Source: Pyxidicoccus sp. MSG2 | Lineage (GTDB): Bacteria > Myxococcota > Myxococcia > Myxococcales > Myxococcaceae | Direction: 5' to 3' | Assembly: GCF_026626705.1 (NCBI RefSeq) | Contig: NZ_JAPNKC010000001.1 | Location: 5,270,001 to 5,334,000, forward strand | Length of the DNA: 64,000 nt | Shown: piece by piece, positions 8,546-49,438 of the stretch | Numbering within the stretch: the first letter of the stretch is position 1 | How the letters are laid out: each line of letters begins with the position of its first letter | Notes under the pieces: model-generated | Seen by the model: the letters and a program-made list of their open reading frames with translations, nothing else | What the model was told of the DNA's origin: nothing | Databases searched by the model: none | Position numbers and translations under genes: made by a program

Positions 8546-8567
8546 GTCGCTGTCCGGAGAAGGGTCG

Positions 8568-8596
8568 GGCGGCGGGTTCGATTCCCGCCGCCTCCA
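8568..8596 (+). repeat. tRNA/tmRNA 3'-end-like fragment and hairpin
   Basis: GGCGGCGGG, TTCGATT and CCCGCCGCC form a 9-bp hairpin followed by TCCA. The core (GCGGG, TTCGATT, CCCGC, then CGCCTCC and A) has the exact layout of a T-arm plus 3' acceptor strand, but no cloverleaf or tmRNA body lies upstream. The acceptor strand would suit a tmRNA 5' end. It sits between two convergent genes and may act as their terminator. It may be an attachment-site scar. Confidence 0.5.
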
Positions 8597-8620
8597 ACCG
8601 TCCAACCTCAACGCCCTGCC

Positions 8621-9364
8621 TCAGACCCCACGGTAAGGCGTGCCCTTGAAGCCCTCGGCGAGCAATGTGTCGACGGGCACGAGGTAGGGGTTGGCAGCAG
8701 GCTCGAGCGCGCGCAGGAAGCCGTCCCATGCGGCACGGTCGGAGGCGTCGTCGTTCGGCACGGAGAGAGTCTCGAACCAGTCGCGTGGCACCGGGCGCTC
8801 GTTTCCGTGGTCGATCACCTTCACCTTGCGGTCGGGACGTGCGCCGACCGGGCAGTTGGCGGCCAGTGCGACCAGCGTTCGTTGCAACCAGGGTTCGAAC
8901 CCGCAGTCAGGGGGCAGGACATGGAGCGCCAGCACAGCGCACTTGCCGGCCTCGCTCACCATCTGCGGGCGGCCCTTCTTGAACGCGAAGTGCAGGTCCT
9001 GGATGCGAATCAATGCGTCCTGACGTGGGCCGTCCGGATTGCCATGGTTCGTCACTGCACTCGTCACGCCGTCGTAGTCGAGGCTGCGCGAGTACGCGAC
9101 CGCGGCGGTCGAGGTCCATGCCGCCTCCAACCGGTACAACAGGTCGGTGATGTCGGTCAGGCCGTCGAGCCGCCACGCAACCCACTCGATGCAGGCCAGG
9201 CCCACGGCTGCCTTGCCCTTGTAGTTCACCTGCGTCAGGGCATCGGCCAGGTGGCCGGGGATGCTGTCCGGGTTGTCGAGCGCGAGGGAGACCTGGGTGC
9301 CAGAACGGAATGTGAGCGGCGCCATGGAAATCGAAGCCGGAATATGGACGGGGCGCTTCAGCAT
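8621..9364 (-). CDS. Hypothetical protein, 247 aa
   Basis: No family is recognised. The ATG at 9364 (MLKRPVHIPAS) has GAGG at a good distance. The open frame continues upstream through non-coding sequence, so this start is preferred. The protein is soluble, without signal or membrane segment, and has a helical middle (WVAWRLDGLTDITDLLYRLE) and a charged C-terminus. Its upstream region carries the same 60-bp element as the next minus-strand gene (start 11921), so the two are probably expressed under the same control. Paired orphan genes of this kind are sometimes immunity-type proteins, but nothing here proves that. Confidence 0.7.
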   Translation of the reverse strand: MLKRPVHIPASISMAPLTFRSGTQVSLALDNPDSIPGHLADALTQVNYKGKAAVGLACIEWVAWRLDGLTDITDLLYRLEAAWTSTAAVAYSRSLDYDGVTSAVTNHGNPDGPRQDALIRIQDLHFAFKKGRPQMVSEAGKCAVLALHVLPPDCGFEPWLQRTLVALAANCPVGARPDRKVKVIDHGNERPVPRDWFETLSVPNDDASDRAAWDGFLRALEPAANPYLVPVDTLLAEGFKGTPYRGV

Positions 9365-9410
9365 GGGTCGTTCCTCGGCAGTGGGTTCCACGGGCGCACC
9401 GGCCCAACGG

Positions 9411-9470
9411 ATAGGACGGATAGGAGCCCTGTTGAGGGCGGCGGGAGGGTGAAGAGGGGCAAAGAAGGGC
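9411..9470 (-). promoter_or_regulatory. Copy A of a duplicated upstream element
   Basis: About 85% identical over 60 bases to 11951-12010, and placed 46 bases before the start at 9364. Read on the minus strand it contains TCAACA, a 16-base spacer and TATCCG, a weak sigma-70-like pair. The conserved block GGAGCCCTGTTGAGG is unchanged between copies. Confidence 0.5.
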
Positions 9471-9632
9471 TGGTCTGCTCCCCGATTATCGGACCCGTTG
9501 AAGCGTTGATGCGCGTGCCCGCCACCGCGCCGCTTTCGTCGCTCGCGCGGGCCTGGGGCTGCTGGGAGGAGCTGCGTTCCTGGACGGTCCGGCACGGCGG
9601 AGCACCTGACGCACGTCAGGCGCTGCGAACGA

Positions 9633-33033: not shown

Positions 33034-33189
33034 ATGAAGATCCTCAAGGCGTTGAGTGACCGCTTCCTGAAGTTGTTCCTGTCCGAAGTTCCCGCGGGTG
33101 CCTGTGTTCCGAACATCGGCGAGTGCTGTACGGCCAGGCGCATGTCCCACAGCTGCACGGGCCCCTGCGTCAAGTCCTCTGTCTGCTGA
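33034..33189 (+). CDS. Six-cysteine secreted-peptide precursor, 51 aa
   Basis: AAAGGA precedes the ATG. Residues 1-23 (MKILKALSDRFLKLFLSEVP then AGA) form an amphipathic leader ending A21-G22-A23, an AxA signal-peptidase-like site. Residues 24-51 hold all six Cys: 24, 31, 32, 41, 45 and 51 (spacing C-x6-CC-x8-C-x3-C-x5-C). Cleavage after A23 would give a 28-residue basic peptide with Cys at both ends and three possible disulfides, knottin-like in size. Downstream genes encode MauE, a MauD-like thioredoxin, an ABC exporter and an S26 peptidase, exactly what such a peptide would need. No lanthipeptide or radical-SAM enzyme is nearby, so disulfides are the expected modification. The bioactivity is unknown. 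Confidence 0.75.
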   Translation: MKILKALSDRFLKLFLSEVPAGACVPNIGECCTARRMSHSCTGPCVKSSVC

Positions 33190-33206
33190 TTTCTGACTCA
33201 TGACTC

Positions 33207-33237
33207 CGGCTGGATGTGAGCCATTCACATCCAGTCG
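33207..33237 (+). terminator. Attenuator-type hairpin after the peptide gene
   Basis: CTGGATGTGA and TCACATCCAG form a perfect stem around GCCAT, extended by three more pairs (one G-U) to 33207/33237. It sits between the peptide stop and the MauE start. Partial termination here would give more precursor than processing proteins, as in many bacteriocin operons. Confidence 0.7.
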
Positions 33238-33258
33238 TGGTCTTCGCGAGGACTTCCG

Positions 33259-33810
33259 TTGAACGCGGTCAATCTAGGCTGTCGACTGTTGCTGGCCACG
33301 GTGTTCGCGCTCGCCGCGTTCGGAAAGGCGCGCGGACGCAAACCTTTTGATGAATTCATCCACACGCTCGAGACCTTTGGCTTTCCGCGCGCCCTGGCGG
33401 GGGCGCCGCTGGCGGCCACGTTGATCCTGGCGGAAGCCGCCTCCGCGCTGTTGCTCGTGGTGGACGTGGCGGCGGGCTATGCGCTGGCGCTGGCGCTCCT
33501 GGTGGGCTTCACGCTGGGGCTCGCGTGGGTGATGCGCCGGGGAGAGGCGGTCGCGTGCCGGTGCTTCGGTGCCAGCAACGCCCCCGTCAGCGCGGCGCAC
33601 CTGGTACGCAATGGGCTGTTGCTGACAATCACTGTCGTCGGGGCGGTGAGCCACCAGGTCGCCTCGGGGGAGCTGGCGGTGGGGATGGGCGTCATCGCGG
33701 GGACGGTCGGAGTCCTGGCGGGGCTCTTCGTCACGCGCTGGGATGATCTGGTGTTCCTGCTTCGAGGACCGCAGCCGCTGGCCGCGTCTTCGCGAACCCG
33801 ACGAAACTGA
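33259..33810 (+). CDS. MauE/DoxX-like membrane protein
   Basis: TTG at 33259 has GAGG seven bases before it and gives 183 residues. Four to five membrane segments are visible (LLLATVFALAAFGKA, LILAEAASALLLVVDVAAGY, ALALLVGFTLGLAWVM, LLLTITVVGAV). CRCFG between segments matches the redox Cys motif of MauE. In methylotrophs MauE works with MauD to form the six disulfides of methylamine dehydrogenase small subunit in the periplasm. No methylamine dehydrogenase genes are present here, so the partner is likely the six-Cys peptide. The next gene begins eight bases downstream. Confidence 0.85.
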   Translation: MNAVNLGCRLLLATVFALAAFGKARGRKPFDEFIHTLETFGFPRALAGAPLAATLILAEAASALLLVVDVAAGYALALALLVGFTLGLAWVMRRGEAVACRCFGASNAPVSAAHLVRNGLLLTITVVGAVSHQVASGELAVGMGVIAGTVGVLAGLFVTRWDDLVFLLRGPQPLAASSRTRRN

Positions 33811-33818
33811 GGAAGCAG

Positions 33819-34340
33819 ATGATTGAAACGCTTGTCGTGGGTGGTGTCATCCTCGCCGTGCTGGTGGTGGCCAATCTCATGCTGACCCTCGGGCTCATCG
33901 GTCGGCTGCGCACGCTTCAGGAGATGGTGAACAACCAGGTCATCGTGCGCGACCCGTTCCTGCCCCAGAAGGGGGAAGAGGTCGGTCGCTTCGAGGCCAC
34001 CACCATGGATGGCGAGGCCTTCACGGATGCCGCTCTGCGGGAGGGGAAGACGCTGGTCGGCTTCTTCGCCACGGGCTGCCGGGTCTGCTCCTCGGTGCGC
34101 AAGCAGCTCCTCGAGTCGCCGCCTGGAATGCCGCTCATGGCGTTCATCGAAGGGGACCCCGGCGACCCGGACACGTTGGCGGTGGGGGCGTCACTGAAGC
34201 ACATGGCCAGGGTGGCATTGCTGTCCGATGGGGACTCCGTGACGCGGGCCATCAAGCAGGCGGGCTATCCCACGCTCGTGCTCGTCGACAAGGGCGTGGT
34301 CGCGGCCTCGGGGCACTACCTGCACGAAGTCCTGTCATGA
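33819..34340 (+). CDS. MauD/TlpA-like membrane-anchored thioredoxin
   Basis: A 173-residue protein with one N-terminal membrane anchor (residues 4-28, VVGGVILAVLVVANLMLTLG). A thioredoxin fold follows: LVGFFATGCRVCSSV with the redox pair C87-R-V-C90 and cis-Pro loop AGYPTLVLV. The order anchor, short linker, redoxin is that of MauD. It should face the periplasm and exchange disulfides with the MauE homologue and the peptide. GAGGA precedes the ATG. Its stop overlaps the exporter start by four bases, so translation is coupled. Confidence 0.85.
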   Translation: MIETLVVGGVILAVLVVANLMLTLGLIGRLRTLQEMVNNQVIVRDPFLPQKGEEVGRFEATTMDGEAFTDAALREGKTLVGFFATGCRVCSSVRKQLLESPPGMPLMAFIEGDPGDPDTLAVGASLKHMARVALLSDGDSVTRAIKQAGYPTLVLVDKGVVAASGHYLHEVLS

Positions 34341-36202
34341 GTGAGCCGCGCAGTGGGCGGGGGCTGCTGCGCGAGTTGTCGCGCACGGTGGGCGCGGCCG
34401 TGGCGCTCCAGTGGCGCGCGGCGCCGCTGGCGTCGGGGTTCGCCTTCCTCCTCACGCTGTGCACCGGCTCCGTGGCCGCCGTGGGTGGCTGGCTCACCAA
34501 GGAGTTGCTGGATGAGTTGGGCCGCGGCGCCCTGGCCGACTCCCAGCGGGCGCTCACGCTGGCGGTGGGCGCCGCCGCGGTGGCCGGCGGCTCCATGGCC
34601 ATCCTCAATGTCTCCGAGTACCTGACCGGAGTGATTCGCTGGGGCGTCACGTTGGAGGTGGAGCGCTCCCTCTTCGCGAAGGTGGCGGCGCTGGAGGGCC
34701 TGCACCACTTCGAGGACCCCGCCTTCCACGGCCGCTTGCGGCTCGCGGAGGAAGCCGCCCGGGACGCGCCCCAGCAGCTCATCGAGTTCGTGAGGGCCCT
34801 GCTGCGCATGCTCGTCTCGGTGGGGACACTGAGCGCCGTGGTCCTGATGGTGTCGCCGCCCATGGCGCTGCTGCTGCTGCTGGCGGGGGGCGTGGCACTG
34901 ATGGCCCAGCTCGCGCGCAGCCGGTGGATGGTGGCGCTGTCCGTGGCGCTGGTTCCGACGTATCGCTGGCGCGATTTCTACCATTCACTGCTGGTGGACG
35001 TGCGGGCGGCGAAGGAGAGCCGACTGTTCGGCCTGGGGGAGCTGCTGCTGGACCGGATGGTGGCATCCCTGCGCAAGGCGGCGGACAGCGAACTGGCCGT
35101 GACGCGCAAGGGGCTGGCCGTGCAGGCAGCGCTGTCGCTGCTCACGGCGGCGGTGGCGGCAGCCGGGGCCTTCATCGTCGCCCGGGGCGCGCTTCAGGGC
35201 CGGCTCCAGCTCGGGGACGTCTCTCTCTTCCTCGCGGCCGTGGCTGGCATCCAGGCCGCCTTCAACGGGCTTCTCTCGCAGCTCGATTTCGCGGGCCGCA
35301 GTGTCCAGACCTTCAAGAACTACCTCGACATCATCGCCCTTCCCGTCCGCGCGCCGGAGGCTTCGCGTCCGGTGGCGCCGCTGCGGCACGGCGTGGAGTT
35401 GCGCGACGTCTGGTTCCGCTACGACGCCAGCGGACCGTGGGTGCTGCGCGGGGTGAGCCTCTTCATTCCAGCGGGGGGCTCGGTGGGACTCGTCGGCGTC
35501 AACGGCGCCGGAAAGAGCACGCTGGTGAAGCTGCTGTGCCGTCTCTATGACGTGGAGCGCGGCCAGCTCCTCTGGGACGGAGTGGACGTCCGCGAACTGG
35601 ACGCCCGAGCGCTGCGGCGGCGGATGACGGCGACCTTCCAGGACTTCATGACGTATGACTTCACCGCGGCGGAGAACATCGGCCTGGGGGACCTGGACCG
35701 CCTGAAGGACGATGCGCGAATCCGCGACGTGGCACGCCTGGCGGAGATTGACGAAAAGCTCGCTTCGCTCCCCGCGGGTTACGACACGCTGCTGAGCCGC
35801 GTGCTCGAAGGCGAGGACGAGGACATGCCGGCGGGTGTCTCGCTTTCCGGAGGGCAGTGGCAGCGATTGGCGCTGGCTCGGGCCCTGATGCGCCAGGACG
35901 TCGACCTGTTGGTGCTGGACGAGCCAAACTCCGGCCTGGACGCGGCCGCCGAGTTCCAGATCCACCGGACGCTGGAGCGCCACGGCGCGGGGCGGGCCCG
36001 GCTGCTCATCTCCCACCGGATGAGCGCGCTGCGGAGCGCGGACACCCTCTTCGTCCTCTCCGAGGGCCGCATCATCGAGCAGGGGTCGCATGACACGTTG
36101 ATGGCGGCGGGCGGCGAGTACGCGCGACTGTTCACGCTCCAGGCGAGCGGCTATCAGGACGAGCGCGTCGCATCACGGGCGAGCCAGAAGGAGGTCGCAT
36201 GA
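34337..36202 (+). CDS. ABC-type peptide exporter (fused TMD-NBD)
   Basis: A 621-residue half-transporter. About six membrane helices span residues 20-310. The ATPase domain has Walker A VNGAGKST, signature LSGGQWQRLALARALM, Walker B LLVLDEPNSGLD and switch His LLISHRMS. Unlike many bacteriocin exporters there is no N-terminal C39 peptidase; the separate S26 peptidase downstream would replace it. It presumably works as a homodimer moving the precursor peptide across the inner membrane. It overlaps both neighbours by four bases. Confidence 0.92.
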   Translation: MSEPRSGRGLLRELSRTVGAAVALQWRAAPLASGFAFLLTLCTGSVAAVGGWLTKELLDELGRGALADSQRALTLAVGAAAVAGGSMAILNVSEYLTGVIRWGVTLEVERSLFAKVAALEGLHHFEDPAFHGRLRLAEEAARDAPQQLIEFVRALLRMLVSVGTLSAVVLMVSPPMALLLLLAGGVALMAQLARSRWMVALSVALVPTYRWRDFYHSLLVDVRAAKESRLFGLGELLLDRMVASLRKAADSELAVTRKGLAVQAALSLLTAAVAAAGAFIVARGALQGRLQLGDVSLFLAAVAGIQAAFNGLLSQLDFAGRSVQTFKNYLDIIALPVRAPEASRPVAPLRHGVELRDVWFRYDASGPWVLRGVSLFIPAGGSVGLVGVNGAGKSTLVKLLCRLYDVERGQLLWDGVDVRELDARALRRRMTATFQDFMTYDFTAAENIGLGDLDRLKDDARIRDVARLAEIDEKLASLPAGYDTLLSRVLEGEDEDMPAGVSLSGGQWQRLALARALMRQDVDLLVLDEPNSGLDAAAEFQIHRTLERHGAGRARLLISHRMSALRSADTLFVLSEGRIIEQGSHDTLMAAGGEYARLFTLQASGYQDERVASRASQKEVA

Positions 36203-36660
36203 TGCTCACGGCGATGAGCCTGGGGGCCGCGCTTCTCGTGGCGGGGGCCGTGTTCGCGTCCTGGGCGCGTCACCGCTGGATTGTCGTCGCGGTGCGAGGC
36301 AACAGCATGTCGCCCACGCTGCACGATGGGCAGCGGCTCGTCGCGAGGCGGCTGGACCGTTCTGTCCTGCCCGGGAGCGGCTATGCGCGTTCAGACATCG
36401 TCGTCTTCCTGCCTCCCGCGGCGCAGCGCGCGGCGATGGACGCCGAAGCACTGCCCTATCTCGTCAAGCGGGTGGCCGCCGTGGCGGGAGACCCGGTGCC
36501 GGAGTGGGCCCGGGCGGCGCTCGGTGCCGACAGCCAGACGTGCGTCCCACCCGGCAAGGTGGTGGTGGCCGGAGACAATGCGCACAGCCAGGACTCACGG
36601 CAGCTGGGCTACATCGACGCGGAGACCGTCATCGCCATCGTGCGGCCAGGCGGGGCCTGA
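36199..36660 (+). CDS. S26 family signal peptidase
   Basis: A 153-residue membrane-anchored peptidase: one N-terminal helix (LGAALLVAGAVFASWA), then RGNSMSPTLHDGQRLVAR with nucleophile S36. The general-base Lys90 lies in YLVKRVAAVAGD, and VVVAGDNAHSQDSRQLGYI is the conserved box D/E. It is shorter than housekeeping LepB. Clustering with the exporter suggests that it cuts the precursor after A-G-A. Its ATG overlaps the exporter stop, and it is the last gene of the unit. Confidence 0.9.
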   Translation: MMLTAMSLGAALLVAGAVFASWARHRWIVVAVRGNSMSPTLHDGQRLVARRLDRSVLPGSGYARSDIVVFLPPAAQRAAMDAEALPYLVKRVAAVAGDPVPEWARAALGADSQTCVPPGKVVVAGDNAHSQDSRQLGYIDAETVIAIVRPGGA

Positions 36661-36788: not shown

Positions 36789-37547
36789 ATGCTGGCATTT
36801 CGGAGTGGCTCCGAGGGTGGTCGTACGCGTGAAAACCGGTCGTCCGCGAAGGGCAAGGGATGGGTGGCGCTCGCGCTGCTGCTCCTGCCGCTGACGGCGG
36901 CGGCGGGTCCGGGTCCTGAGTACCGCTGGGACGAGTCTCGCAACCGCCCCGGGTCCAATCGCTGCCACGACAGCTCGCAATGCGATGGCGCACGCACGTG
37001 CAGCCCCGCGGGCTGGTGCCAGGGCGAGGCGCGTCCCCTGCCGCCCCCTCCGCCTCCCGAAGTCCCCAGAGGACGGGACTGGCACCCTGGCCGGGGGGAG
37101 TCGCGCGCCCAGCGCAGCACCTTCATCCGCAGCAGGCTCGCGGGGCTCGTCGTCGACATCCTGGGCGGCAACCGCTCGCCCGGCGCGGGGCTCGTCGCCT
37201 ACCGGGCCAAGTCCAACCGGGAGGGCAATGACAACCAGAAGTGGGAGCTGGTGCCCACGCGAGGCGGCTACCTCATCCGCAGCCGACTCAACGGGCTCGT
37301 GCTCGACGTGCAGGGAGCCAACAAGGCTCAGAGAACCCCCGTCGTCATGTGGGAGGCCCACGGCCAGCCCCATCAGGTGTGGCAGCTCGTGCCCGGCCCG
37401 GTCCGCGGCACCTACTACATCCAGAGCCAGCTCAATGGCTTCGTGCTCGACATCGAGGGCGCCAACACGGATGGCTCGGGGCGGCTCATCACCTATCCCA
37501 TGAAGCGCGAGGGAGCGGACAATCAGCTCTGGCTGCTGGACATCTGA
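36789..37547 (+). CDS. Secreted ricin-type beta-trefoil lectin
   Basis: A 252-residue exported protein with AAGGAAA before the ATG. Its signal core WVALALLLLPLTAAAG is preceded by a long basic N-region. A four-Cys stretch (RCHDSSQCDGARTCSPAGWC) and a Pro-rich linker lead to one trefoil domain (residues about 110-252). Its repeats read IRSRLAGLVVDILGGN, IRSRLNGLVLDVQGAN and IQSQLNGFVLDIEGAN, each with a Q-x-W-like end. It probably binds polysaccharide outside the cell. It may be independent of the peptide operon 128 bases upstream. Confidence 0.88.
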   Translation: MLAFRSGSEGGRTRENRSSAKGKGWVALALLLLPLTAAAGPGPEYRWDESRNRPGSNRCHDSSQCDGARTCSPAGWCQGEARPLPPPPPPEVPRGRDWHPGRGESRAQRSTFIRSRLAGLVVDILGGNRSPGAGLVAYRAKSNREGNDNQKWELVPTRGGYLIRSRLNGLVLDVQGANKAQRTPVVMWEAHGQPHQVWQLVPGPVRGTYYIQSQLNGFVLDIEGANTDGSGRLITYPMKREGADNQLWLLDI

Positions 37548-37578: not shown

Positions 37579-38775
37579 TCAGACGGAGCGCAGGAACGAC
37601 GCGGTGCTCCGTTCTCGCCCCTCAATCGCCACGGTGTCCCCCTGCCCCCTGGAACCTGGATGCTCGGGTTCGAAAAACCGAGCGGGCGCGTGCCGCCGCT
37701 GCCAGAAGGCCTCGCCCATCCAGCGCTGCTCCTGCGCGTAGTGGGCCTGGCGTGCCTCCAGGTAGCCGGAGAACTCCTCCTCCCGCTCCCGTGCGTAGTC
37801 CTCCAGCGCCTCCCGGTCCCCTCTCAGGGAGGCCAACAGCGCGCGTGCCGCCGCCTGCCCCGTGCGCAGCCCCTTGACGATGCCGCTCGAGGACAGTGGA
37901 TCCCACATGGCCGCCGCGTCCCCCACGGCCGCCCAGCCTTCTCCGGCCGCGCGCTCCAGGCGGCTCGTCTCGCAGGGGCGGACATGCAGCCGCCGCACCG
38001 TCGGCAGCCCTCCCAGCCCCCGCGTCAGGTGACGGGTCCGGGCCAGCAGCGCGCTCCACCCGGCGGGGCGCAACGCGTTGTGGCGCTCCAGCACATCCAC
38101 GTCGCTCATCAGGGTGAAGATGAGGCGCCCCTGGGGCAGTGGCGCCGCGTACCACCAGCCCGAAGGGGTGGCCTCCACCCGGAGCAGGTGCTCCTCGTGG
38201 CCCGGCGGCCTGTCCACGACGGCCGACACGCTGCAGAGCCTGTCATGGTTCTGCCGCCGCACGCCGCGGTATCGCGCCACCTGCGCCGAGCGTCCCGTTG
38301 CGTCCACCAACACCGTGCAGTGCAACGTCCTCGGGCCCTCGGGCGTGCTGAGCTGGAGCCGCCACCCGCGCTCCTCACGCTCCAGGTGGGTGACGCAGGC
38401 GTTCCTCCACAGCTCCACGCCCTGGGACTGCGCGTGACGCGCCAGCAGGCTGTCCAACTGCCGGCGCTCCACGTGCCAGCCCTGGCCGTAGGGGTTGGTG
38501 AGGAAGGAGTGGTGGTGGGGCTCCTCCGAGCCCCAGGTGGCTTCCAGGCCGTACGAGACCAGGAAGCCCTCCGTCTCCAACGGTTCAGGGGCGAGCCACC
38601 GCCGCAACTCGGCGAACGCCACCGGGGAGAGTGTCTCCCCAGGGCGCCAGGGCGAGTAGTCCGTGCGCTCCAACACGCAGGTGGACACCCCCGCCCTCAC
38701 CAGGGTCAGCGCGGCGCTCAGCCCCGCGACCCCGCCGCCCACCACCACGGCCGTGCAGGTGGCTCGCCCGTCCAT
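37579..38775 (-). CDS. lodB: LodB-like FAD-dependent oxidoreductase
   Basis: A 398-residue flavoprotein of the tryptophan-halogenase/hydroxylase-like group. It has the FAD-binding VVVGGGVAGLSAALTLVRAG near the N-terminus, LVDATGRSAQVARY, and GDAAAMWDPLSSSGIVKGLR for the second FAD loop. It lacks the WxWxIP halogenase motif. In Marinomonas, LodB is needed to build the cysteine tryptophylquinone of LodA. Its ATG overlaps the LodA-like stop (TGATG), so the two are translationally coupled. It is cytosolic and the last gene of the operon. Confidence 0.85.
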   Translation of the reverse strand: MDGRATCTAVVVGGGVAGLSAALTLVRAGVSTCVLERTDYSPWRPGETLSPVAFAELRRWLAPEPLETEGFLVSYGLEATWGSEEPHHHSFLTNPYGQGWHVERRQLDSLLARHAQSQGVELWRNACVTHLEREERGWRLQLSTPEGPRTLHCTVLVDATGRSAQVARYRGVRRQNHDRLCSVSAVVDRPPGHEEHLLRVEATPSGWWYAAPLPQGRLIFTLMSDVDVLERHNALRPAGWSALLARTRHLTRGLGGLPTVRRLHVRPCETSRLERAAGEGWAAVGDAAAMWDPLSSSGIVKGLRTGQAAARALLASLRGDREALEDYAREREEEFSGYLEARQAHYAQEQRWMGEAFWQRRHAPARFFEPEHPGSRGQGDTVAIEGRERSTASFLRSV

Positions 38776-40643
38776 CACTTGCTCCGCTCCTGCGACTCGA
38801 AGAAGTGCTCTCCCTCCTGGAGGACGAAGCCCAGGCTCGACCACTTCTGCTGCATCTGGATGTACATGGCCAGGTCCCTGGCGGGAGTGTCCTCCGTTGC
38901 CTGGGACTGGAGCGCCGGCTTCTGCGCCTCGACTTCGGCCACCTTCTCCAGCTCGCGCGTCCAGGAGACCATGGCGAGGTCCCCCTTCTTGGCGAACACG
39001 TCATCCGGCCGGTGGGCGCACCACCACATGTGGTACATGCGCTCGCCGTCGTACGGGATGTGCGCTGCGGGGTAGAGCTGCTTCTTGCACTGGTAGAAGT
39101 CCGCCTGCCAGGGCAGCGCCATCTGCTGGGAGAAGAAGCCTGGGCGGATGGTCAGCGTGTCCGGGGCACCGGGGAAGACATTCCCCGAGTGCTTGACGCG
39201 GAAAGGCGTTCCGTACAGCTCGGGCCTGCGCACCATCCAGCTGCAGTCGATGCCGGGGAAGAAGGGGCCTCCCACCGAGTTCTCCATCGCGGCCCGGTCC
39301 AGCCCCTCGGCGGTGATGGCCTGGGGAATGGACTGGGCCGCCGCCGCATCCCAGTCCTCCACGAACTCACCCGCGGCCCAGCGCTCGAGCACCGCGTACT
39401 GCACGCGCGTGAGGGTCATGAAGTAGTCCGGTCCGGGCTGCTTCTCCAGGTCCGTGTACCTGTCTCCCAGCCCCTTGGGCATGAGCAGGGGCTCGTTGCC
39501 GGTGTTGTTGGAGGGGTTGCGCATGTAGCCGAAAATCGTCCTGCGCATGCGCCTGCCTCGGCTGGAGGACACCGAGCCCAGGTCCTGCTCCACGCCCGCG
39601 AGGCTCCCATGGAAGGACTTGGAGGCTTCGGGGTTGTGCACCTGGCGCTGCTGCAGGGCACGCTCGAGCAGCGGGTAGACCTCGTGGAGGAAGGAGGGCT
39701 TGTAGCTCTTGAACGTGTTCGCCTGGGCGTCCCAGTCCGCCCGCTGCGCCGCGAGCCGCGCGAAGAGCCCCTGGGAGAAGAGGCCATCCGTGTCGACGAG
39801 CTTCACCTCCTGGGGGAAGCGCACGGCCACGTCCCACAGGGTGTCCAGCAGGCGGACGGTGATGCCCACCGAGGGCGCGAAGTCGGGTGGCCCCACCAGG
39901 ACCCAGGCCCCGGTGTCACCCTCCAGCTTCGCCACCTGCGTCTTGCCGTCCACCACGTAGGTGACCTCGGCCGACACCGGCCCGTCCGCCATGTCGTCGA
40001 ACCAGTGGTCGTTGTTCACGTAGTTGTTGATGAGCGTGCCGGGCTTCGTCGTCTGGGCCTGGCCGGGCCCGCCGAGCACGAGCAGGTGGCCATTCTCATC
40101 CGTGCGCAGCTCTCCCAGGGACTTGATGGGGATGTGGCTCTTGGTGTTGGTGAAGGGGACCGGCGGGGTGTTGCGGCCCGAGATGGACTTCGCGCCCGGG
40201 TCGATGACGAGCAGCCGCTCCCGGTCCGCCGCGGGCACGTGGCTGTTGCGCAGCCGGTTCTGCGTGTCATGCACGCCCGGCTCGGTCTCCGGCCCCTTCC
40301 ATTGGCCGTTCGCGCCGTCCTGCCCGTCGAACTTGAAGAAGGCGGCCTTGCGGTTGGCCAGGTGGGCCTTCCAGGTGACCTGGGTGACGCCCTGGCTGCC
40401 AGCGGTCACCTCGCGCAAGGGGACGATCTGGCTGCCTTTGAGCTCGTACTCGAAGATGCGGAAGCGGGCCGCCTGGCGCTTGACGCGGCCCTGGCTGTCC
40501 TTGAAGGGGCGGAACTTCTTCTGGGCGACGTCGTAGTTGGGCCGCTCGTTGGGCCGCTCGGGGCCGATGAAGAAATCGGTGGGGGCGTCGCCCACGCGGG
40601 CGACGCCGATGGCAGGGTGGATTCGGAAGAATCTCTGGCTCAT
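38775..40643 (-). CDS. lodA: LodA/GoxA-like CTQ quinoprotein amino-acid oxidase
   Basis: A 622-residue protein opening RFFRIHPAIGVARVGDAPTD then FFIGPE, the hallmark of the LodA/GoxA family (L-lysine epsilon-oxidase, glycine oxidase). There is no signal peptide, as in LodA. Candidate quinone residues are C467 in PGIDCSWMVRRP and W512 in ALPWQADFYQC, whose surroundings look typical. The C-to-W spacing of 45 is shorter than the roughly 65 I recall for LodA, so the subgroup differs. Such enzymes oxidise amines to aldehydes and release H2O2, which is antimicrobial. The substrate is unknown. GGAG lies eight bases before the ATG at 40643. Confidence 0.88.
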   Translation of the reverse strand: MSQRFFRIHPAIGVARVGDAPTDFFIGPERPNERPNYDVAQKKFRPFKDSQGRVKRQAARFRIFEYELKGSQIVPLREVTAGSQGVTQVTWKAHLANRKAAFFKFDGQDGANGQWKGPETEPGVHDTQNRLRNSHVPAADRERLLVIDPGAKSISGRNTPPVPFTNTKSHIPIKSLGELRTDENGHLLVLGGPGQAQTTKPGTLINNYVNNDHWFDDMADGPVSAEVTYVVDGKTQVAKLEGDTGAWVLVGPPDFAPSVGITVRLLDTLWDVAVRFPQEVKLVDTDGLFSQGLFARLAAQRADWDAQANTFKSYKPSFLHEVYPLLERALQQRQVHNPEASKSFHGSLAGVEQDLGSVSSSRGRRMRRTIFGYMRNPSNNTGNEPLLMPKGLGDRYTDLEKQPGPDYFMTLTRVQYAVLERWAAGEFVEDWDAAAAQSIPQAITAEGLDRAAMENSVGGPFFPGIDCSWMVRRPELYGTPFRVKHSGNVFPGAPDTLTIRPGFFSQQMALPWQADFYQCKKQLYPAAHIPYDGERMYHMWWCAHRPDDVFAKKGDLAMVSWTRELEKVAEVEAQKPALQSQATEDTPARDLAMYIQMQQKWSSLGFVLQEGEHFFESQERSK

Positions 40644-40661
40644 GGTCACTGCTCCGTTCTT

Positions 40662-42881
40662 TCAGTGGGTTTCCTGGTCGAGCTGGTCGAGGAGATCCAA
40701 CAGGCGTTGCTTGTCCTTCGCGGGCAGGTCGCGGTCGGGGGGCATCTTGAAGCCGATGACCTTGGCCTGAGCGGGGTTCGGGTCGATGCGGTCGAGCATG
40801 GGACTGGTCTGGTCGGCGATCAGGTCCTTGCTGAAGACATCGAAGCGAATGGCGCCATGACAGCGGTAGCAATACTTGTTCAGCAGCCCCAGCAGCTCCT
40901 TGTCCTGAGGCTTGGAGCTCCACGTCAGGGGAGTGGGCGTCGGCTTGCGCGTCCTGTGGAGCGGGTGGCTGAGATTGGCGAACTCGAAGCCGCGCGTGAG
41001 GAGGTCCGGCTCCGGCTGGACCGAGTTCTGGTGCAATTGCAGCCACTTGTCGGTGGCGGCGAGCTGGAAGCTCTGGTTGTTGACGCGCCGCTGCTGGTCG
41101 GCGATCTCCCGATTGACGGTGCGAAGGATGTCGAAGGCCGCGGCGTACTGGGGCGACTTCGTATCCTTGCCAGCATCGAACAGCGGAGCCGGGGCGTCGG
41201 GTCTGGCCAGGGCGGGGAAGTCGCCATCCGTGAGGCGGTCCATCCAGTGGTCCGTATCCAGGAGGTTGAGGATGGCCTGGCCCTTGAGCGAGCCGTGGCA
41301 GGTGTCACACCCATTGGGCACGAAGTACGGCGCCGCGCCGGCCGTGTCACCCGCGGCGACCAGGTTGCCCGCGTCGAAGAAGGCATCGAGCTGGTAGGAG
41401 AGCTTGTAGCCGTTCGCCGAGGGGCCGAAGTCCACCCAGTAGATGCTGTCGACCTCCGCGCACTCCTCCCTGGTGCCGGTGCAGTGGGTGACGAGGGATA
41501 CCTGGGTGTTGACGGAGCTGTTCTTCAGGTTGCCGGGGAGGGTGCCGCCGAAGGGGCTATGGACGGGCGGGCTGGTGAAGTGGTTGAAGAGGATCCACGC
41601 GCTCTCCACGTGGTGCTTCGCCGCCTCGGAGTTGGGGCGGGAGTTGATGCGCACCAGCCGGCGCCAGCCGATGTTGCGCTTCTCCGGAGCCACGGCGAAG
41701 TTGACAATCTTTGGCGCGAAGAAGCGGGAGACGAGAATGTCCCCCTTCTGGCGGACAGGCGGGGTGCGCTCGACGACGGTCCACTGATTGCCAATGCCTG
41801 TGTGCCAGGAGGTGACGCCCTGGGCGGTGTCGGGGCGGTGCAGGTAGTCACCCTTCCACGACTTGAGCATGAGCTTGCCGTTGGTGGACTCGGCCTTCCA
41901 ATCGATGCCGACGCCCGTGTTCCCGGTGGTGACGCCCTGCGGGCTGTCGGGGCGGTTCAGGTAGTCCCCCTTCGAGGACTTGAGCCGGACCTTGTCTCCC
42001 ACGCACTCGGCGGTCCAGAGGGTGCCGGCCCCCGTGGATGCGGAGGCGACGCCCTGGGCCGTGTCGGGACGGTTCAGCGAGTCGCCCTTCCACGACTTGA
42101 GCTCGATGGACTTGCCACAGTAGGCGAAGGCCGACGCAGGGGGCGGGTTGGGGCCGCTGCGCTCGACGACGGTCCACTGATTGCCGATGCCCGTGTGCCA
42201 GGTGGTGACGCCCTGCGCGCTGTCGGGGCGGTGCAGGTAGTCACCCTTCCACGACTTGAGCATGAGCTTGCCGCTGGTGAACTCGGCCGTCCAATCGTTG
42301 CCGGGGCCCGTGTGCCAGGTGGTGATGCCCTGGTTGCTGTCGGGGCGGTGCAGGTAGTCCCCCTTCGAGGACTTGAGCCGGACCTTGTCTCCGACGCACT
42401 CGACGGCCCAGATGATGCCGGTCCCCGTGGATGCGGAGGTGACACCCTGGGCGGTGTCGGGACGGTTCAGCGAGTCGCCCTTCCACGACTTGAGCTCGAT
42501 GGACTTGCCACAGTAGGGGAAGGCCGCCGCAGGGTTGGAGCCGCCGCCCATCAACTTCTCAGGGGCCTCGAACTCCACGACCTCGGGAGTGAGCTCCGAG
42601 TAGCCGAGGTAGTTGAGCAGCTCCTGCATGTTGGCCTTCGACTCGATGGTCTCCGGCGTGAGGAAGTTCAGCGTCCTGGCGAGTTTCTTGTAGTAGGCCG
42701 AGGCCTCCGCCGCGCTGCCGTTGTTGAGCGCGCTGGGCTTGGCGTCGGGGGCGGAGGGCTGGGCGGAGGCTGTCGAGCCCAGCAGCAGCAGCGCGGAACA
42801 GAGGCCCACCCACACGCGGCCACCTCGGCGGCGAGGGCGGTTGGGGGATGCGACATGGCGGGGAGGTCTATGTAAAGGCAT
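40662..42881 (-). CDS. Secreted dihaem cytochrome-like protein with fascin-type beta-trefoils
   Basis: A 739-residue exported protein with a long basic N-region and signal core ending LLLLGSTASA. Residues about 115-350 are two trefoil-like blocks of fascin-type repeats (SIELKSWKGDSLNRPDTAQG, VRLKSSKGDYLHRPD, LMLKSWKGDYLHRPDSAQGV). The C-terminal half has two haem-c motifs, C525-D-T-C528-H529 and C671-Y-R-C674-H675. A late IGFKMPPDRDLPAKD recalls the distal Met region of dihaem cytochromes. It lies 18 bases before the LodA gene on the same strand. The likely roles are sugar or surface binding plus electron transfer, perhaps for the oxidase. Confidence 0.8.
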   Translation of the reverse strand: MPLHRPPRHVASPNRPRRRGGRVWVGLCSALLLLGSTASAQPSAPDAKPSALNNGSAAEASAYYKKLARTLNFLTPETIESKANMQELLNYLGYSELTPEVVEFEAPEKLMGGGSNPAAAFPYCGKSIELKSWKGDSLNRPDTAQGVTSASTGTGIIWAVECVGDKVRLKSSKGDYLHRPDSNQGITTWHTGPGNDWTAEFTSGKLMLKSWKGDYLHRPDSAQGVTTWHTGIGNQWTVVERSGPNPPPASAFAYCGKSIELKSWKGDSLNRPDTAQGVASASTGAGTLWTAECVGDKVRLKSSKGDYLNRPDSPQGVTTGNTGVGIDWKAESTNGKLMLKSWKGDYLHRPDTAQGVTSWHTGIGNQWTVVERTPPVRQKGDILVSRFFAPKIVNFAVAPEKRNIGWRRLVRINSRPNSEAAKHHVESAWILFNHFTSPPVHSPFGGTLPGNLKNSSVNTQVSLVTHCTGTREECAEVDSIYWVDFGPSANGYKLSYQLDAFFDAGNLVAAGDTAGAAPYFVPNGCDTCHGSLKGQAILNLLDTDHWMDRLTDGDFPALARPDAPAPLFDAGKDTKSPQYAAAFDILRTVNREIADQQRRVNNQSFQLAATDKWLQLHQNSVQPEPDLLTRGFEFANLSHPLHRTRKPTPTPLTWSSKPQDKELLGLLNKYCYRCHGAIRFDVFSKDLIADQTSPMLDRIDPNPAQAKVIGFKMPPDRDLPAKDKQRLLDLLDQLDQETH
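41767..42520 (-). repeat. Internal duplication encoding the trefoil blocks
   Basis: DNA for the first block (about 42124-42520) and the second (about 41767-42115) is nearly the same, including the unit encoding SIELKSWKGDSLNRPDTAQG in both. The similarity at base level points to a recent duplication or gene conversion. Confidence 0.7.
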
Positions 42882-43238: not shown

Positions 43239-43610
43239 TCAGGGAATCGGCGCCAGGACCATCCGGCCGTACGCGATGAACGCCATGAGGAGGCCCAGCA
43301 CGCCACTCATGATGATGGGCGGAACCTCGCGGTACTTGATGTGCACCCAGATGAACACGAGGCTCTCGAGCGCCAGGACCGTGGCGGCCACCACCGTGAG
43401 CGCCGGCTGCCAGTGGAAGGCAGCGGGGACGACCAGCCCGACCACGCAGACGAGCTCGAGGATGCCGAGGGCCCTCCAGGCTTCCCGCGGCAACGCACCA
43501 AAGGACGGGACCCCCTCGCTGACCTTGTCGAACATGAAGGCCTTCATGACGCCCGACGCTCCGTACACGAGCGCGGCGAGGACCTGCAGGACCCACAACA
43601 GGATGTTCAT
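43239..43610 (-). CDS. DoxX-family membrane protein, 123 aa
   Basis: A four-helix membrane protein of the DoxX_2 type: ILLWVLQVLAALVYGASGVM, LGILELVCVVGLVVPAAFHW, LTVVAATVLALESLVFIWVH and MSGVLGLLMAFIAYGRMV. ATG at 43610 is preferred, with GGGAAG about ten bases upstream; an ATG three codons earlier is possible. Family members take part in quinone or thiol redox chemistry or stress tolerance, but no specific role is visible. It follows the lod control region but is read toward it, not from it. Confidence 0.85.
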   Translation of the reverse strand: MNILLWVLQVLAALVYGASGVMKAFMFDKVSEGVPSFGALPREAWRALGILELVCVVGLVVPAAFHWQPALTVVAATVLALESLVFIWVHIKYREVPPIIMSGVLGLLMAFIAYGRMVLAPIP

Positions 43611-43759
43611 TGTGTGCATCTTCCCGGTTTCCGCGTCGGCGCGCAGCGCGGTTTCCCTCCCGCAGCCCCGCCTCCTCCCCGGCGGGAGGGCGGCACCTCA
43701 GCGGCAGGCTTCGCAGAGCCCCTGGAGTCGCCCGGCTTCCTCCGGAGCACTCGCTGCGC

Positions 43760-45350: not shown

Positions 45351-45559
45351 GGCGCTCGGGCTCAGTCGCCGCAGGACAGCTTCAGCACCAGGGAGGTGGC
45401 AGGGAGCCTCCAGAAGCGTCGGAGAGGGGCCCACCGACTGCCCGAGCCCCCGGCCTGGTTACACGCGGACCCCTGTCCTGTTTTGTGGGGAGTCGCCCAC
45501 GGGTGATGTCGAACGTCCTTCTCCAGCCGTCATTCTGGAGGAGAATCGGCGCCCGACCC

Positions 45560-48500
45560 ATGGCCCAGCTCCATCGTCTGCGAATCCTCCACATCTCCGA
45601 CCTGCACGAGAACGGCACGCGTGAAACAGCGGCCTGGCGGCGGCGCGAAGTGCTGGGAACCGAATGGGAAAGGAACCTGGATGCGCTCCGGGCCGAGGGG
45701 CCCATTGACCTGGTCTGCTTCACGGGGGACCTGGCGCAGTCGGGAGTCGCGGGGGAGTACGAGCCGCTGACGGGCTTCCTCGACGCGCTGCTCGGGCGCC
45801 TGGGGCTGACTCGCGAGCGGCTCTTCCTCGTCCCTGGCAATCACGACGTCCACCGAAAGACGGCGGAGCGCGCCTGGAAGGCGCTGCGCGAGAAGATGGG
45901 TCCGCACGAGAGCGAGGTCTTCTCACGGTGGATGGCCGGGGGTCGGGCACCGCGCGGCATGAAGAAGGCGCTGCCCGACGAGGTCCTGCAGCGCCAGTCC
46001 GCCTATCGCGAGTGGCTCCGCGACACGCTGAAGCGCGCGGACCTGCTGCCGGAGAACTCTCCTCACAAGCGGCTGGGCTACCGGGCCAGGGCGCCGCTGG
46101 GGCTTCCCTTCGATGTACACATCATCGGCCTGGACTCCGCGTGGCTCGCGGGAGACGACAGCGACAGTCGCAAGCTGTGGCTGACGGAGGACCAGGTGAT
46201 GCGGCTGGTGACGGACGCGCAGGGGAACCCGCTGCCGGGCTTCCGGCTGGCGCTGATGCACCATCCCCTGACGGACCTGGCGGACGGTGAGGACTGCCGG
46301 CGGCGGCTCGCGGACCATGTGGACCTGCTGCTGCGTGGACATCTCCACGAGTCGGAACCCGAGACCTGGGCAGACCCGTCACGCACGCTGCGAGGGCTGG
46401 CGGCGGGGTGCCTCTACCAGTCCAACCGCTACCCCAACGCGTGTCATGTCCTCACCGTCACGCTGGACGAGCAGGGTCGGCCGCAGCGCTACGACGTGCA
46501 CTTCCGTGCATGGTCTCCGCGCGGGCGCATCTGGCATGACGACACCAGCCTGTACCGAGAAGCGCCGCACGGGAAGCTGACGTGGTGGGTGCAGACACCG
46601 CCCGCCGAGAGCACGATTCATCCCCGCGTGGGAGATGTCTTCGTCGGGCGGAAGGAGGAGCTCGAGCGGATTGCGCAGGCGGTGCTCCCCGCGAGCGGCG
46701 CCCCGCGTCCGGTGGCCGTCTGCTCGCTGCTGGGCATGCCGGGAGTGGGAAAAAGCTACCTGGCCGACCGCTTCGCCCACGAGCACCGGGAGCGCTTCCC
46801 TGGCGGCTACGTGCGGCTGACGCTGGAGTCGAAGGAGACGCGGACGCTGGAAGGGCTGCGCGACGTGCTGCTGGATGCGCTGAAGCTGCCCGCCGGGCCC
46901 GAGGCGTGGGTGAACCTGCAGGCGCGGCTCCAGCGGCCGATGACGCTGCTGCACGTGGAGAACGTCGACAGCGAGCCACTGGCGGAGGTCGCGGTGGAGC
47001 TGGTGAAACACCTCCAGGCGTGCCCCATCGTGGTGACGGGGCGGCATCGCGCGCTTGGAGCGGATGCGGGGTGGGCTCGCATCGAAGTGGCTCCGCTGGA
47101 CGAGACCACGGCCCTGCGGCAGTTGGCGGCGGAGTACCGCGAGGCGCGGACTCCCGAGGAGTCCGCGGACTTCGCAAGACTGGTGAAGGAGCTCGGGTAC
47201 CTTCCCCTCGCTGTTCACCTCGCGGCGGGCTACCTGCGCGCGCACCGCCCGGTGAAGTCGCTCTTCGACTACCTGCGCCGCCAGGGCTTCCAGGTAGGGC
47301 CCGTCGACAAGGCGGACCCGCTGCTGACCGCGCAGCGCTCGCGAGCCCTCCTGAGCAGCACCTTCGAGCTCTCCCTATTGGTCTTGCGCGAGGAGCTGGA
47401 GACCGCGCTCGGACAGCCGAAGGTGGACGCGGCGATGTCCGGCCTCGCGGGCCTGGCACATGCTCCCGCATCGGGAGTGGGCGCCAGCCTGGGGATGGCC
47501 ATGGCCGGGCTACCGCCGGAGGATTTCGAGGAGCTGACGGTGCGGGCCTTCGGGCTGTGCTTGCTGGAAGAAGCAACGGAGGGGAGGAAGGAGCCCGGTT
47601 GGCGCCTTCACCCGCTCCTGGCGGAGCTGCTGCGGGGCGAAGCAAGGGACAGCGCTGTCATCGGACGGATGACTGAATGGTTCGTGACCAGGCTGCCAAA
47701 GCGTGACCCGGGTCACGAGGCCGAGCAGGGACAGCACTGGCAGGCGGTGCATGAAGAAGCAGCCTCACTGGGGAGCTGGCTTCCGGAAGTACCGGATGCG
47801 GAGTGCGCACGTGTTGACCGCGCGGGTTCCATCTATGCGCAGAGCTGCGGGCCTTTCATGGCCTGGATGTCCTTCACCAGGCGTTGTGTGGCGGTGGCGA
47901 GTTCATCGAAGCATCGCTCCGACGCACTATGGACTCTCGGCAATGTGGCACTTCGCGCGGGCGAGCTGGGTGAGTCGCTCGCGGCCGCACAGGCCAAGGC
48001 CCGACTGGACAATGCCGACGGAAACGAGCGCGAATCCGCTCTCGCTCGCGGGCTGGAGGCTGACATCCTCCAATACCGGGGGCAGCTGGACGAAGCCCTT
48101 CGCATCCGCCGCGAGGAGGAACTCCCCGTCTACGAGCGGCTGGGCGACGTGCGCTCTCGCGCCGTGACGCTGGGGCAGGTGGCCGACATCCTCCAAGATC
48201 GGGGGCAGTTGGACGAAGCCCTTCGCATCCGCCGCGAGGAGGAAATCCCCGTCTACGAGCGGCTGGGCGACGTGCGCGCTCGCGCCGTAACGCTGGGGAA
48301 GGTGGCCGACATCATCCAAGATCGGGGGCAGCTGGACGAGGCCCTTCGCATCCGCCGCGAGGAGCAACTCCCTGTCTTCGAGCGGCTGAGCGACGTGCGC
48401 GCTCGCGCCGTGACGCTGGGGAAGGTGGCCGACATCCTCCAGGCCCGGGGGCAGCTGGACGAGGCCCTTCGCATCCGCCGCGAGGAGCAACTCCCCGTCT

Positions 48501-49438
48501 ACGAGCGGCTGGGCGACGTGCGCGCTCGCGCCGTAACGCTGGGGAGGGTGGCCGACATCCTCCAAGACCGTGGGCAGTTGGACGAGGCCCTTCGCATCCA
48601 CCGCGAGGAGCAACTCCCCGTCTTCGAGCGGCTGGGCGACGTGCGCTCTCGCGCCGTGACGATGGGACAGGTGGCCGACATCCTCCAAGCCCGGGGGCAG
48701 CTGGACGAAGCCCTTCGCATCCGCCGCGAGGAGCAGCTCCCCGTCTTCGAGCGGCTGGGCGACGTGCGCGAGCGCGCCGTGACGCTGGGGAGGGTGGCCG
48801 ACATCCTCCAAGCCCGGGGGCAGCTGGACGAAGCCCTTCGCATCCGCCGCGAGGAGCAACTTCCCGTCTTCGAGCGGCTGGGCGACGTGCGCTCTCGCGC
48901 CGTGACGCTGGGGCAGGTGGCCGACATCCTCCAAGACCGGGGGCAGCTGGACGAGGCCCTTCGCATCCGCCGCGAGGAGGAAATCCCCGTCTACGAGCGG
49001 CTGGGCGACGTGCGCGCTCGCGCCGTGACGCTGGGGCAGGTGGCCGACATCCTCCAAGCCCGGGGGCAGCTGGACGAGGCCCTTCGCATCCGCCGCGAGG
49101 AGCAACTCCCCGTCTTCGAGCGGCTGGGCGACGTGCGCGCTCGCGCCGTGACGCAGGGGAAGGTGGCCGACATCCTCCAGGCCCGGGGGCAGCTAGACGG
49201 GGCCCTTCGCATCCGCCGCGAGGAGCAACTCCCCGTCTACGAGCGGCTGGGGCTACGCCACGACCTGATTATCGGACGGGCAAACCTGGCGATCACCTAC
49301 CTCGCCCGGAATCAACCTGGAGACAAACAGCTTGCCGTCGAGCTACTGAGAGCCGCACTCCGCGAAGCGCGAGCAATGCGCTTGCCCGAAGCCGACCAGT
49401 TCATCGCAGTCATGAAACAGCTGGAGGTTGATGAATAG
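45560..49438 (+). CDS. Metallophosphoesterase-STAND NTPase-TPR protein, 1292 aa
   Basis: Domain 1 (residues about 5-300) is a calcineurin-like phosphoesterase with all metal motifs: HISDLHENG (D14, H16), FTGDLAQSG (D57), VPGNHDVH (N94, H95), ALMHHPL and LLRGHLHES. Domain 2 (about 375-700) is an NB-ARC/STAND ATPase with P-loop GMPGVGKS (392-399) and a GxP-like LGYLPLAVHLAAGYL. Domain 3 (from 835) is ten 41-residue TPR repeats and a short tail. This effector-NTPase-sensor order is that of prokaryotic NLR-like defence proteins, in which ligand binding to the repeats triggers oligomerisation and effector activity. Calcineurin-like nucleases or phosphodiesterases are plausible effectors. The start is uncertain (ATG at 45506 is an alternative); 45560 is chosen by fit to the enzyme N-terminus. 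Confidence 0.9.
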   Translation: MAQLHRLRILHISDLHENGTRETAAWRRREVLGTEWERNLDALRAEGPIDLVCFTGDLAQSGVAGEYEPLTGFLDALLGRLGLTRERLFLVPGNHDVHRKTAERAWKALREKMGPHESEVFSRWMAGGRAPRGMKKALPDEVLQRQSAYREWLRDTLKRADLLPENSPHKRLGYRARAPLGLPFDVHIIGLDSAWLAGDDSDSRKLWLTEDQVMRLVTDAQGNPLPGFRLALMHHPLTDLADGEDCRRRLADHVDLLLRGHLHESEPETWADPSRTLRGLAAGCLYQSNRYPNACHVLTVTLDEQGRPQRYDVHFRAWSPRGRIWHDDTSLYREAPHGKLTWWVQTPPAESTIHPRVGDVFVGRKEELERIAQAVLPASGAPRPVAVCSLLGMPGVGKSYLADRFAHEHRERFPGGYVRLTLESKETRTLEGLRDVLLDALKLPAGPEAWVNLQARLQRPMTLLHVENVDSEPLAEVAVELVKHLQACPIVVTGRHRALGADAGWARIEVAPLDETTALRQLAAEYREARTPEESADFARLVKELGYLPLAVHLAAGYLRAHRPVKSLFDYLRRQGFQVGPVDKADPLLTAQRSRALLSSTFELSLLVLREELETALGQPKVDAAMSGLAGLAHAPASGVGASLGMAMAGLPPEDFEELTVRAFGLCLLEEATEGRKEPGWRLHPLLAELLRGEARDSAVIGRMTEWFVTRLPKRDPGHEAEQGQHWQAVHEEAASLGSWLPEVPDAECARVDRAGSIYAQSCGPFMAWMSFTRRCVAVASSSKHRSDALWTLGNVALRAGELGESLAAAQAKARLDNADGNERESALARGLEADILQYRGQLDEALRIRREEELPVYERLGDVRSRAVTLGQVADILQDRGQLDEALRIRREEEIPVYERLGDVRARAVTLGKVADIIQDRGQLDEALRIRREEQLPVFERLSDVRARAVTLGKVADILQARGQLDEALRIRREEQLPVYERLGDVRARAVTLGRVADILQDRGQLDEALRIHREEQLPVFERLGDVRSRAVTMGQVADILQARGQLDEALRIRREEQLPVFERLGDVRERAVTLGRVADILQARGQLDEALRIRREEQLPVFERLGDVRSRAVTLGQVADILQDRGQLDEALRIRREEEIPVYERLGDVRARAVTLGQVADILQARGQLDEALRIRREEQLPVFERLGDVRARAVTQGKVADILQARGQLDGALRIRREEQLPVYERLGLRHDLIIGRANLAITYLARNQPGDKQLAVELLRAALREARAMRLPEADQFIAVMKQLEVDE
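48062..49260 (+). repeat. Ten tandem 123-bp repeats inside the STAND gene
   Basis: Units start every 123 bases from 48062 to 49169. Each encodes DIL-Q-x-RGQLDEALRIRREE, then a block like LPVYERLGDVRARAVTLG. The DNA is almost identical from unit to unit. Confidence 0.95.

Follow-up and report, generated by a model that had tools for sequence, protein, structure and literature searches.

Known LodA-like enzymes are oxidases whose released H2O2 kills competitors and drives biofilm dispersal, and the LodB of M. mediterranea matures the cysteine tryptophylquinone (CTQ) cofactor of LodA. Quinohaemoprotein amine dehydrogenase (QHNDH, qhp operon) provides the precedent for CTQ working with a diheme alpha subunit (PMC7876137). 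A survey of lod genes (PMC4417212) lists as neighbours an extra small gene, tyrosinase, multicopper oxidase and ferritin-like genes, together with N-terminal fusions of LodA to catalase-like, pfam14518 and vWA domains; the word "cytochrome" is absent from its main text. Here we analyzed a window of 64,000 nt from Pyxidicoccus sp. MSG2 (contig NZ_JAPNKC010000001.1, positions 5,270,001 to 5,334,000), in which a lodA-lodB pair is led by a gene for a putatively exported diheme c-type cytochrome (gene 1), and found that this pairing is real and conserved within one LodA clade.

The unit reads gene 1, lodA, lodB on the minus strand of a 13.3 Mb genome (Table 1); it contains the single LodA of that genome, and its closest named relative is the locus of Pyxidicoccus caerfyrddinensis (98% over the tail of the gene 1 protein). 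An initial annotation, made from the sequence alone, had described the lodA/lodB overlap (TGATG) and an 18-base gap between gene 1 and lodA; these and the coordinates were all confirmed, the overlap being one base, with the lodB ATG beginning at the last base of the lodA stop. Its statement that standard lod operons hold only lodA and lodB had to be given up: the survey lists the extra neighbours above, and a same-strand gene ended at most 65 nt upstream of lodA at six of ten plasmid loci (ten of 37 matched records were viewed, two of them near copies).

With lod and gox operons the unit shares LodA_N and LodA_C domains, the CTQ cysteine and an adjacent LodB, but its first gene encodes the exported diheme cytochrome and its NCBIfam equivalog scores lie below cut-off: LodA 238 vs 600, GoxA 204 vs 750 and LodB 253 vs 400 bits. 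GoxA, moreover, carries a twin-arginine translocation (Tat) signal (PMC3948610), while the LodA described here has none. The Pfam matches were far above cut-offs (LodA_N 213 bits, LodA_C 114 bits), and both domains were present in 17/17 aligned members. Cys519, aligned with the crosslink Cys516 of M. mediterranea LodA, was invariant in all 17 rows of the LodA alignment, as were Trp540 and Trp541, the candidates for the CTQ tryptophan; the alignment to the solved LodA stops before its Trp581. Because the scores fall under the equivalog cut-offs, strict naming as lysine or glycine oxidase is not warranted: the two proteins are best read as family members rather than a certified lysine oxidase and maturase, which also warns against a default lysine or glycine oxidase label for other members of the clade. 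The lodB product scored 232 bits to GoxB and 178 bits to QhpG, so the likeness to QHNDH comprises a CTQ enzyme, a diheme partner and a QhpG-related flavoprotein. Unlike in QHNDH, however, the CTQ would reside in a 622-aa LodA and not in a small crosslinked gamma subunit; the tail has no sequence match to the QHNDH alpha domains, and no other qhp-like gene recurs beside the unit.

Linkage of the cytochrome gene to one LodA clade

We surveyed 195 genomes of Myxococcota, predatory bacteria of soil. Counted after manual merging of split matches, LodA_N occurred at 59 places (one a fragment with stops) in 38 genomes, and the di-CxxCH tail of the gene 1 protein at 18 places in 16 genomes, every one directly before a lodA. 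The expectation that a survey of LodA neighbourhoods would turn up this cytochrome was therefore borne out for one clade, in which it is a regular companion (18/18), and failed for 41 of the 59 LodA places, which had no tail match. At all 17 loci with both genes on one contig, the cytochrome stop lay 12-23 nt from the lodA ATG, so separate transcription of the cytochrome gene appears unlikely; at the remaining place (G139) the copy is split over two contigs, and the last 60 cytochrome residues directly precede lodA. Twenty-two of the 41 tail-less places were fetched and read, and none had a same-strand CxxCH open reading frame (ORF) ending from 120 nt inside to 600 nt upstream of the lodA start; the same check detected a CxxCH ORF at 17/17 unsplit module loci, as we call the loci with the tail. 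This check was run on all ORFs, since our gene calls came from a home-made codon-composition filter that had missed the cytochrome gene of L073.

In a tree of 40 LodAs (midpoint root; long branches L078 and L080; broken copy L082 left out), the 18 module LodAs fell on one side of a single branch, with support 99/99 and in all 200 bootstrap trees. Distances among tails and among LodAs were correlated at 0.979 over 17 of the 18 loci (split G139 copy left out) and at 0.968 without two outliers, with 0 of 5000 permutations as high either way; part of this co-divergence is shared species history. The cytochrome thus marks one LodA clade, not lod operons at large. A LodB gene adjoined lodA at 18/18 module places, and even in G096 and G098, where lodB is inverted, cytochrome and lodA were still together. 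One genome, G123, carries a decayed lodA of the module clade (L082, about 7747-9510) without start and crosslink-Cys stretch; its lodB looks full-length, and no cytochrome tail was detectable in that genome. This single case fits a joint loss of cytochrome and LodA.

By our own gene calls, the only genes recurring at more than five module loci were the cytochrome/lodA pair and lodB, and for that reason we regard the three as one unit. A DoxX-like gene upstream on the same strand (43239-43619) was considered as a further member and dropped, as it was not among the genes recurring in at least three module loci.

That one LodA clade was found only together with a diheme cytochrome of its own makes two ideas testable, namely CTQ-haem wiring as in QHNDH and its independent origin. 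Among open-access papers (subscription journals lay outside the search) we found no report of a diheme cytochrome beside LodA.

Haem sites and trefoils of the gene 1 protein

The description of gene 1 as an exported protein with two CxxCH sites and fascin-like trefoils was upheld by Pfam matches to Fascin and DUF569, by a trefoil model and by invariant CxxCH sites, with the export signal judged by eye and not by a predictor. Both CxxCH sites were invariant across 17/17 aligned tails at identities down to 35% (alignments A1 and A3 each hold 16 of the 18 module loci and one outside sequence; near copies L064 and L072 were left out). The Met of the GF[KRQ]MP motif, which follows the second CxxCH and is a candidate axial ligand of haem 2, was kept in 17 of the 18 Myxococcota copies, the eighteenth ending at a contig end. 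Such conservation of the pair and of the Met indicates that the two CxxCH sites exceed chance. Haem 1 had no invariant Met in the tail alignment and may be open or His-ligated.

Family assignment of the tail was less direct. The gene 1 protein matched Cytochrome_CBB3 at 17.7 bits against a cut-off of 27, and the second haem region of a divergent relative (P0007) exceeded it at 28.3 bits; the tail of the gene 1 protein itself had no Pfam family at cut-off, and a PDB profile search with 17 tails returned chance-level matches only. No Pfam match to di-haem peroxidase, MauG-type or QHNDH-alpha families was obtained at E 0.1 for the gene 1 protein or at E 1 for its relatives, and homology of the tail to QHNDH alpha or MauG was dropped on these grounds.

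These results bear on a role in cofactor maturation, in which the diheme protein would complete the oxidation of CTQ in LodA as MauG does for tryptophan tryptophylquinone (TTQ). MauG, too, is a diheme protein; both of its haem sites are c-type, and it works with a tryptophylquinone enzyme. The tail is strictly linked to lodA, and the alpha-subunit haems of QHNDH have been proposed to perform the last CTQ oxidation (PMC7876137). We nevertheless hold this role to be improbable: neither the gene 1 protein nor its relatives matched the MauG family (CCP_MauG type), a LodB is present at all 18 module places, and characterized LodAs need no cytochrome.

The trefoils of gene 1 matched Fascin (E 2e-6) and DUF569 (E 2.5e-5) in Pfam, both above cut-off. 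A model of the trefoil pair (mean predicted local distance difference test score, pLDDT, 65.5) contained beta strands only, arranged in trefoil repeats, and matched trefoil proteins: Foldseek placed human fascin on top (11-14% identity), while a second structure comparison with both domains placed first a mosquitocidal holotoxin with several trefoils (2vse, Z 17.5, root-mean-square deviation (rmsd) 6.0, 249 aligned). The best single-domain match was the carbohydrate-binding module CBM92-B (7zon, Z 16.5, rmsd 1.8, 117 aligned), and a CBM92 also led the profile search (7zoi, E 4.8e-6). Fascin-like actin bundling was dropped, as a shared fold at 11-14% identity shows no function. CBM92 and bacterial fascin-like trefoil domains share fold and profile similarity with gene 1, but CBM92 sugar sites need a WExF motif (PMC11039641), which had 0 occurrences in the gene 1 protein and in all further trefoil regions, of cytochromes or of LodAs, that were checked; furthermore, the gene 1-type trefoils are attached to redox proteins rather than to glycosidases. 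CBM92-type glucan binding was dropped because the motif is absent.

Across the module, fascin-type trefoils stood between N-terminal segment and tail at five loci, the source locus included: four had two trefoils, and L061 had one followed by a Cys-pair repeat region. At eleven loci the same point held only three RCxxC repeats, probably a trefoil of another type, as suggested by the pattern of the repeats and by how L061 aligns. Of these eleven, six carried a fascin-type trefoil at the C-terminus of LodA, matching the gene 1 trefoil at 102-120 bits in five; in L068 the match came in two pieces. The early-branching L067 and L078 had a cytochrome tail with neither trefoil nor RCxxC repeats. The diheme tail is thus the constant part and the trefoils the variable one, and the parts appear modular, with homologous trefoils on either partner. 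Trefoils on both partners are the strongest hint of cytochrome and LodA acting in one place, and the loci form a natural series for comparison, in which the trefoil is carried by the cytochrome, carried by LodA or absent. Beyond the inverted lodB of G096 and G098 lies a separate Cys-pair repeat protein; it is secreted-looking, has six RCxxC repeats (L063:4391-5551 and L064:4458-5747) and is a free-standing form of the Cys-pair repeat that many of the cytochromes contain.

An exclusive tie of the trefoil to the module, which 7 of 8 matches in five genomes fitted, was refuted by the search of all 195 genomes: matches at E < 1e-10 fell at 22 places, 11 within the module and 11 elsewhere. Three of the outside places were viewed (two trefoil-only proteins, one large protein); the rest were ORFs of 76-296 aa. 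In the source genome both matches fell in gene 1.

The distribution of trefoils also bears on an anchoring role alone, in which the exported protein would place LodA on a surface via the trefoils while the haems serve something else. Trefoils common to both partners, the existence of free-standing proteins made of fascin-type trefoils or Cys-pair repeats, and the CBM92-B structure match speak for it. We consider it quite unlikely, given that the trefoil varies while the diheme tail stays constant, L067 and L078 keeping the tail without it, and that every trefoil tested lacks WExF.

Proposed electron transfer from the quinone and its alternatives

Several lines of evidence led us to favour electron transfer from LodA to the cytochrome: i) the strict pairing, kept up for cytochrome and lodA even where lodB is inverted; ii) the single LodA clade and the co-divergence of tail and LodA; iii) the homologous trefoils on either partner; iv) the conserved haem sites with their candidate Met ligand; and v) the QHNDH precedent. 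In this reading, the unit would couple a LodA-type oxidase of amino acids (or amines) to haem. LodB would mature the CTQ of LodA, as its M. mediterranea counterpart suggests; the gene 1 protein would be an exported diheme c-type cytochrome that shares the location of LodA and probably forms a complex with it; its haems would most likely be reduced by the quinone and hand the electrons onward; and the pair would then work as a quinohaemoprotein dehydrogenase, either in addition to acting as an H2O2-releasing oxidase or in place of it, with trefoils on either partner holding it on a surface or a partner molecule. We give the central step, that the haems of gene 1 take electrons from reduced CTQ, a probability of roughly 45%.

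Genes beside other LodAs are relevant here. In the plasmid records viewed, the gene directly before lodA was ferritin-like in Azospirillum (two near-copy records). In Hymenobacter it coded for a small protein and followed a ferritin-like gene, in Paraburkholderia it coded for an S53 peptidase, and in Mycetohabitans for an unknown protein, with a DyP-type peroxidase further upstream; the Bradyrhizobium, A. ramasamyi, Planctomyces and Rhizobium plasmid loci had no same-strand gene directly upstream. Within Myxococcota, the lodA of L095 is preceded by a catalase-like protein at 25.2 bits (Pfam cut-off 25). Redox or haem companions ahead of lodA are thus a wider theme.

Two further plasmid loci carry a CxxCH protein directly before lodA: an exported single-CxxCH protein with a signal-like start in P. 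xiamenensis (Pseudoalteromonas; L110:2065-3495), and its relative in Xanthomonas sacchari (L112:5142-6266), an eleventh locus reached through this neighbour. In position both resemble gene 1. They differ from it in being unrelated, in having one haem site and in belonging to a broad family found mostly away from LodA: homology of the P. xiamenensis protein with the gene 1 cytochrome was sought and not found, only the CxxCH letters aligning, and relatives in 40 of 96 genomes of the source organism's family included none next to a Myxococcota LodA place (compared by eye).

These companions raise the alternative that the diheme protein handles the H2O2 of LodA, as a peroxidase that protects the producer or uses peroxide on a target. 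It would accord with the ferritin-like, catalase-like and nearby DyP-type genes beside other LodAs, with the catalase-like and pfam14518 fusions of LodA in PMC4417212, and with a haem 1 that may be open or His-ligated. We rate it as unlikely, as no di-haem peroxidase family of Pfam was matched at the E values given above and the companions of other LodAs are mutually unrelated, so that the common theme may be loose.

The search beyond Myxococcota covered plasmids and viral contigs. A genome-contig scan with the tail returned six loci, all Myxococcota by title or by match to the searched genomes, and in a set of 384 relatives the tail again came up in those 16 genomes and LodA in those 38, with nothing beyond the phylum; no relative was found in viral contigs. 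Four S. meliloti plasmid records held a distant tail homologue (28-31% identity), none of them among the 37 plasmid records matched by tblastn with the source LodA. On pSymA of S. meliloti (L101:9536-11101) the homologue has the N-terminal segment and no trefoil, and two of the four strains had shorter or broken-up matches.

The following points weigh against electron transfer between CTQ and the haems. Known LodA-like enzymes release H2O2, and the genes beside other LodAs suggest iron or peroxide chemistry. No LodA stood beside the tail homologue in the S. meliloti record viewed, and since such homologues occur without a neighbouring LodA, the tail fold appears not to be made for LodA alone. 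The LodA has no visible export signal, which leaves its meeting with an exported cytochrome unexplained and also counts against cofactor maturation. The AlphaFold model of the diheme tail (seven sequences) reached pLDDT 38, and part of the tail-LodA co-divergence reflects the species history noted above.

If the haems do receive electrons from CTQ, quinohaemoprotein dehydrogenases may have evolved a second time, independently, in this clade: its CTQ enzyme would have given up its reliance on O2 and would feed electrons drawn from amino acids or amines into the exported diheme cytochrome, the pair being kept at a surface via trefoils that moved between partners. We offer this as a doubtful but conceivable extension.

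Features and neighbouring genes

Table 1. Features of the cytochrome-lodA-lodB unit (positions in the window).
Feature	Position	Strand	Basis
Gene 1, exported trefoil / di-CxxCH protein, 739 aa	40662..42881	-	ATG at 42881; start homologous in closest relative
Sec-like signal sequence, likely cut after ASA	42762..42881	-	by eye, inferred
Conserved N-terminal segment, probably helical, homologous in most relatives	42543..42761	-	sequence comparison
Fascin-type beta-trefoil 1	42153..42524	-	Pfam, model, structure matches
Fascin-type beta-trefoil 2, 84% identical to trefoil 1	41763..42131	-	sequence comparison
Di-CxxCH tail, 368 residues, constant part of gene 1 protein	40665..41768	-	homologue search, alignment
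Haem site 1, CDTCH	41295..41309	-	motif, alignment
Haem site 2, CYRCH	40857..40871	-	motif, alignment
Met of GFKMP, candidate axial ligand of haem 2	40743..40745	-	conservation; ligand role inferred
Spacer from gene 1 stop to lodA ATG, 18 bases, GGAG inside	40644..40661	-	sequence
lodA, CTQ-oxidase family protein, 622 aa, no signal sequence seen	38775..40643	-	domain matches, alignment
Cys519 of LodA	39087..39089	-	aligned with CTQ crosslink Cys516 of M. mediterranea LodA
Trp540-Trp541 of LodA, candidate CTQ Trp	39021..39026	-	invariant in LodA alignment
lodB, flavoprotein, 398 aa	37579..38775	-	domain matches; start within lodA stop

Elsewhere in the window, on the plus strand, a lectin-like protein convergent with lodB (36789-37547) has ricin-B trefoil and scytovirin-like matches; its trefoil type differs from that of gene 1. 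Before it, the genes at 33034-36660 have the look of a cassette that matures and exports a disulfide-rich peptide. The first encodes a peptide of 51 aa whose second half contains six Cys (33034-33189); it is followed by genes for a MauE-like membrane protein (33259-33810, E 2e-21), a protein recognized by eye as thioredoxin-like (33819-34340), an ABC transporter (34337-36202) and, last, an S26 signal peptidase (36199-36660). On the other side of the unit, also on the plus strand, a 1317-aa protein (45485-49438) joins a metallophosphoesterase and an NB-ARC-like ATPase, the latter below cut-off, to a long array of TPR repeats that are nearly identical, and resembles defence or signalling STAND proteins.

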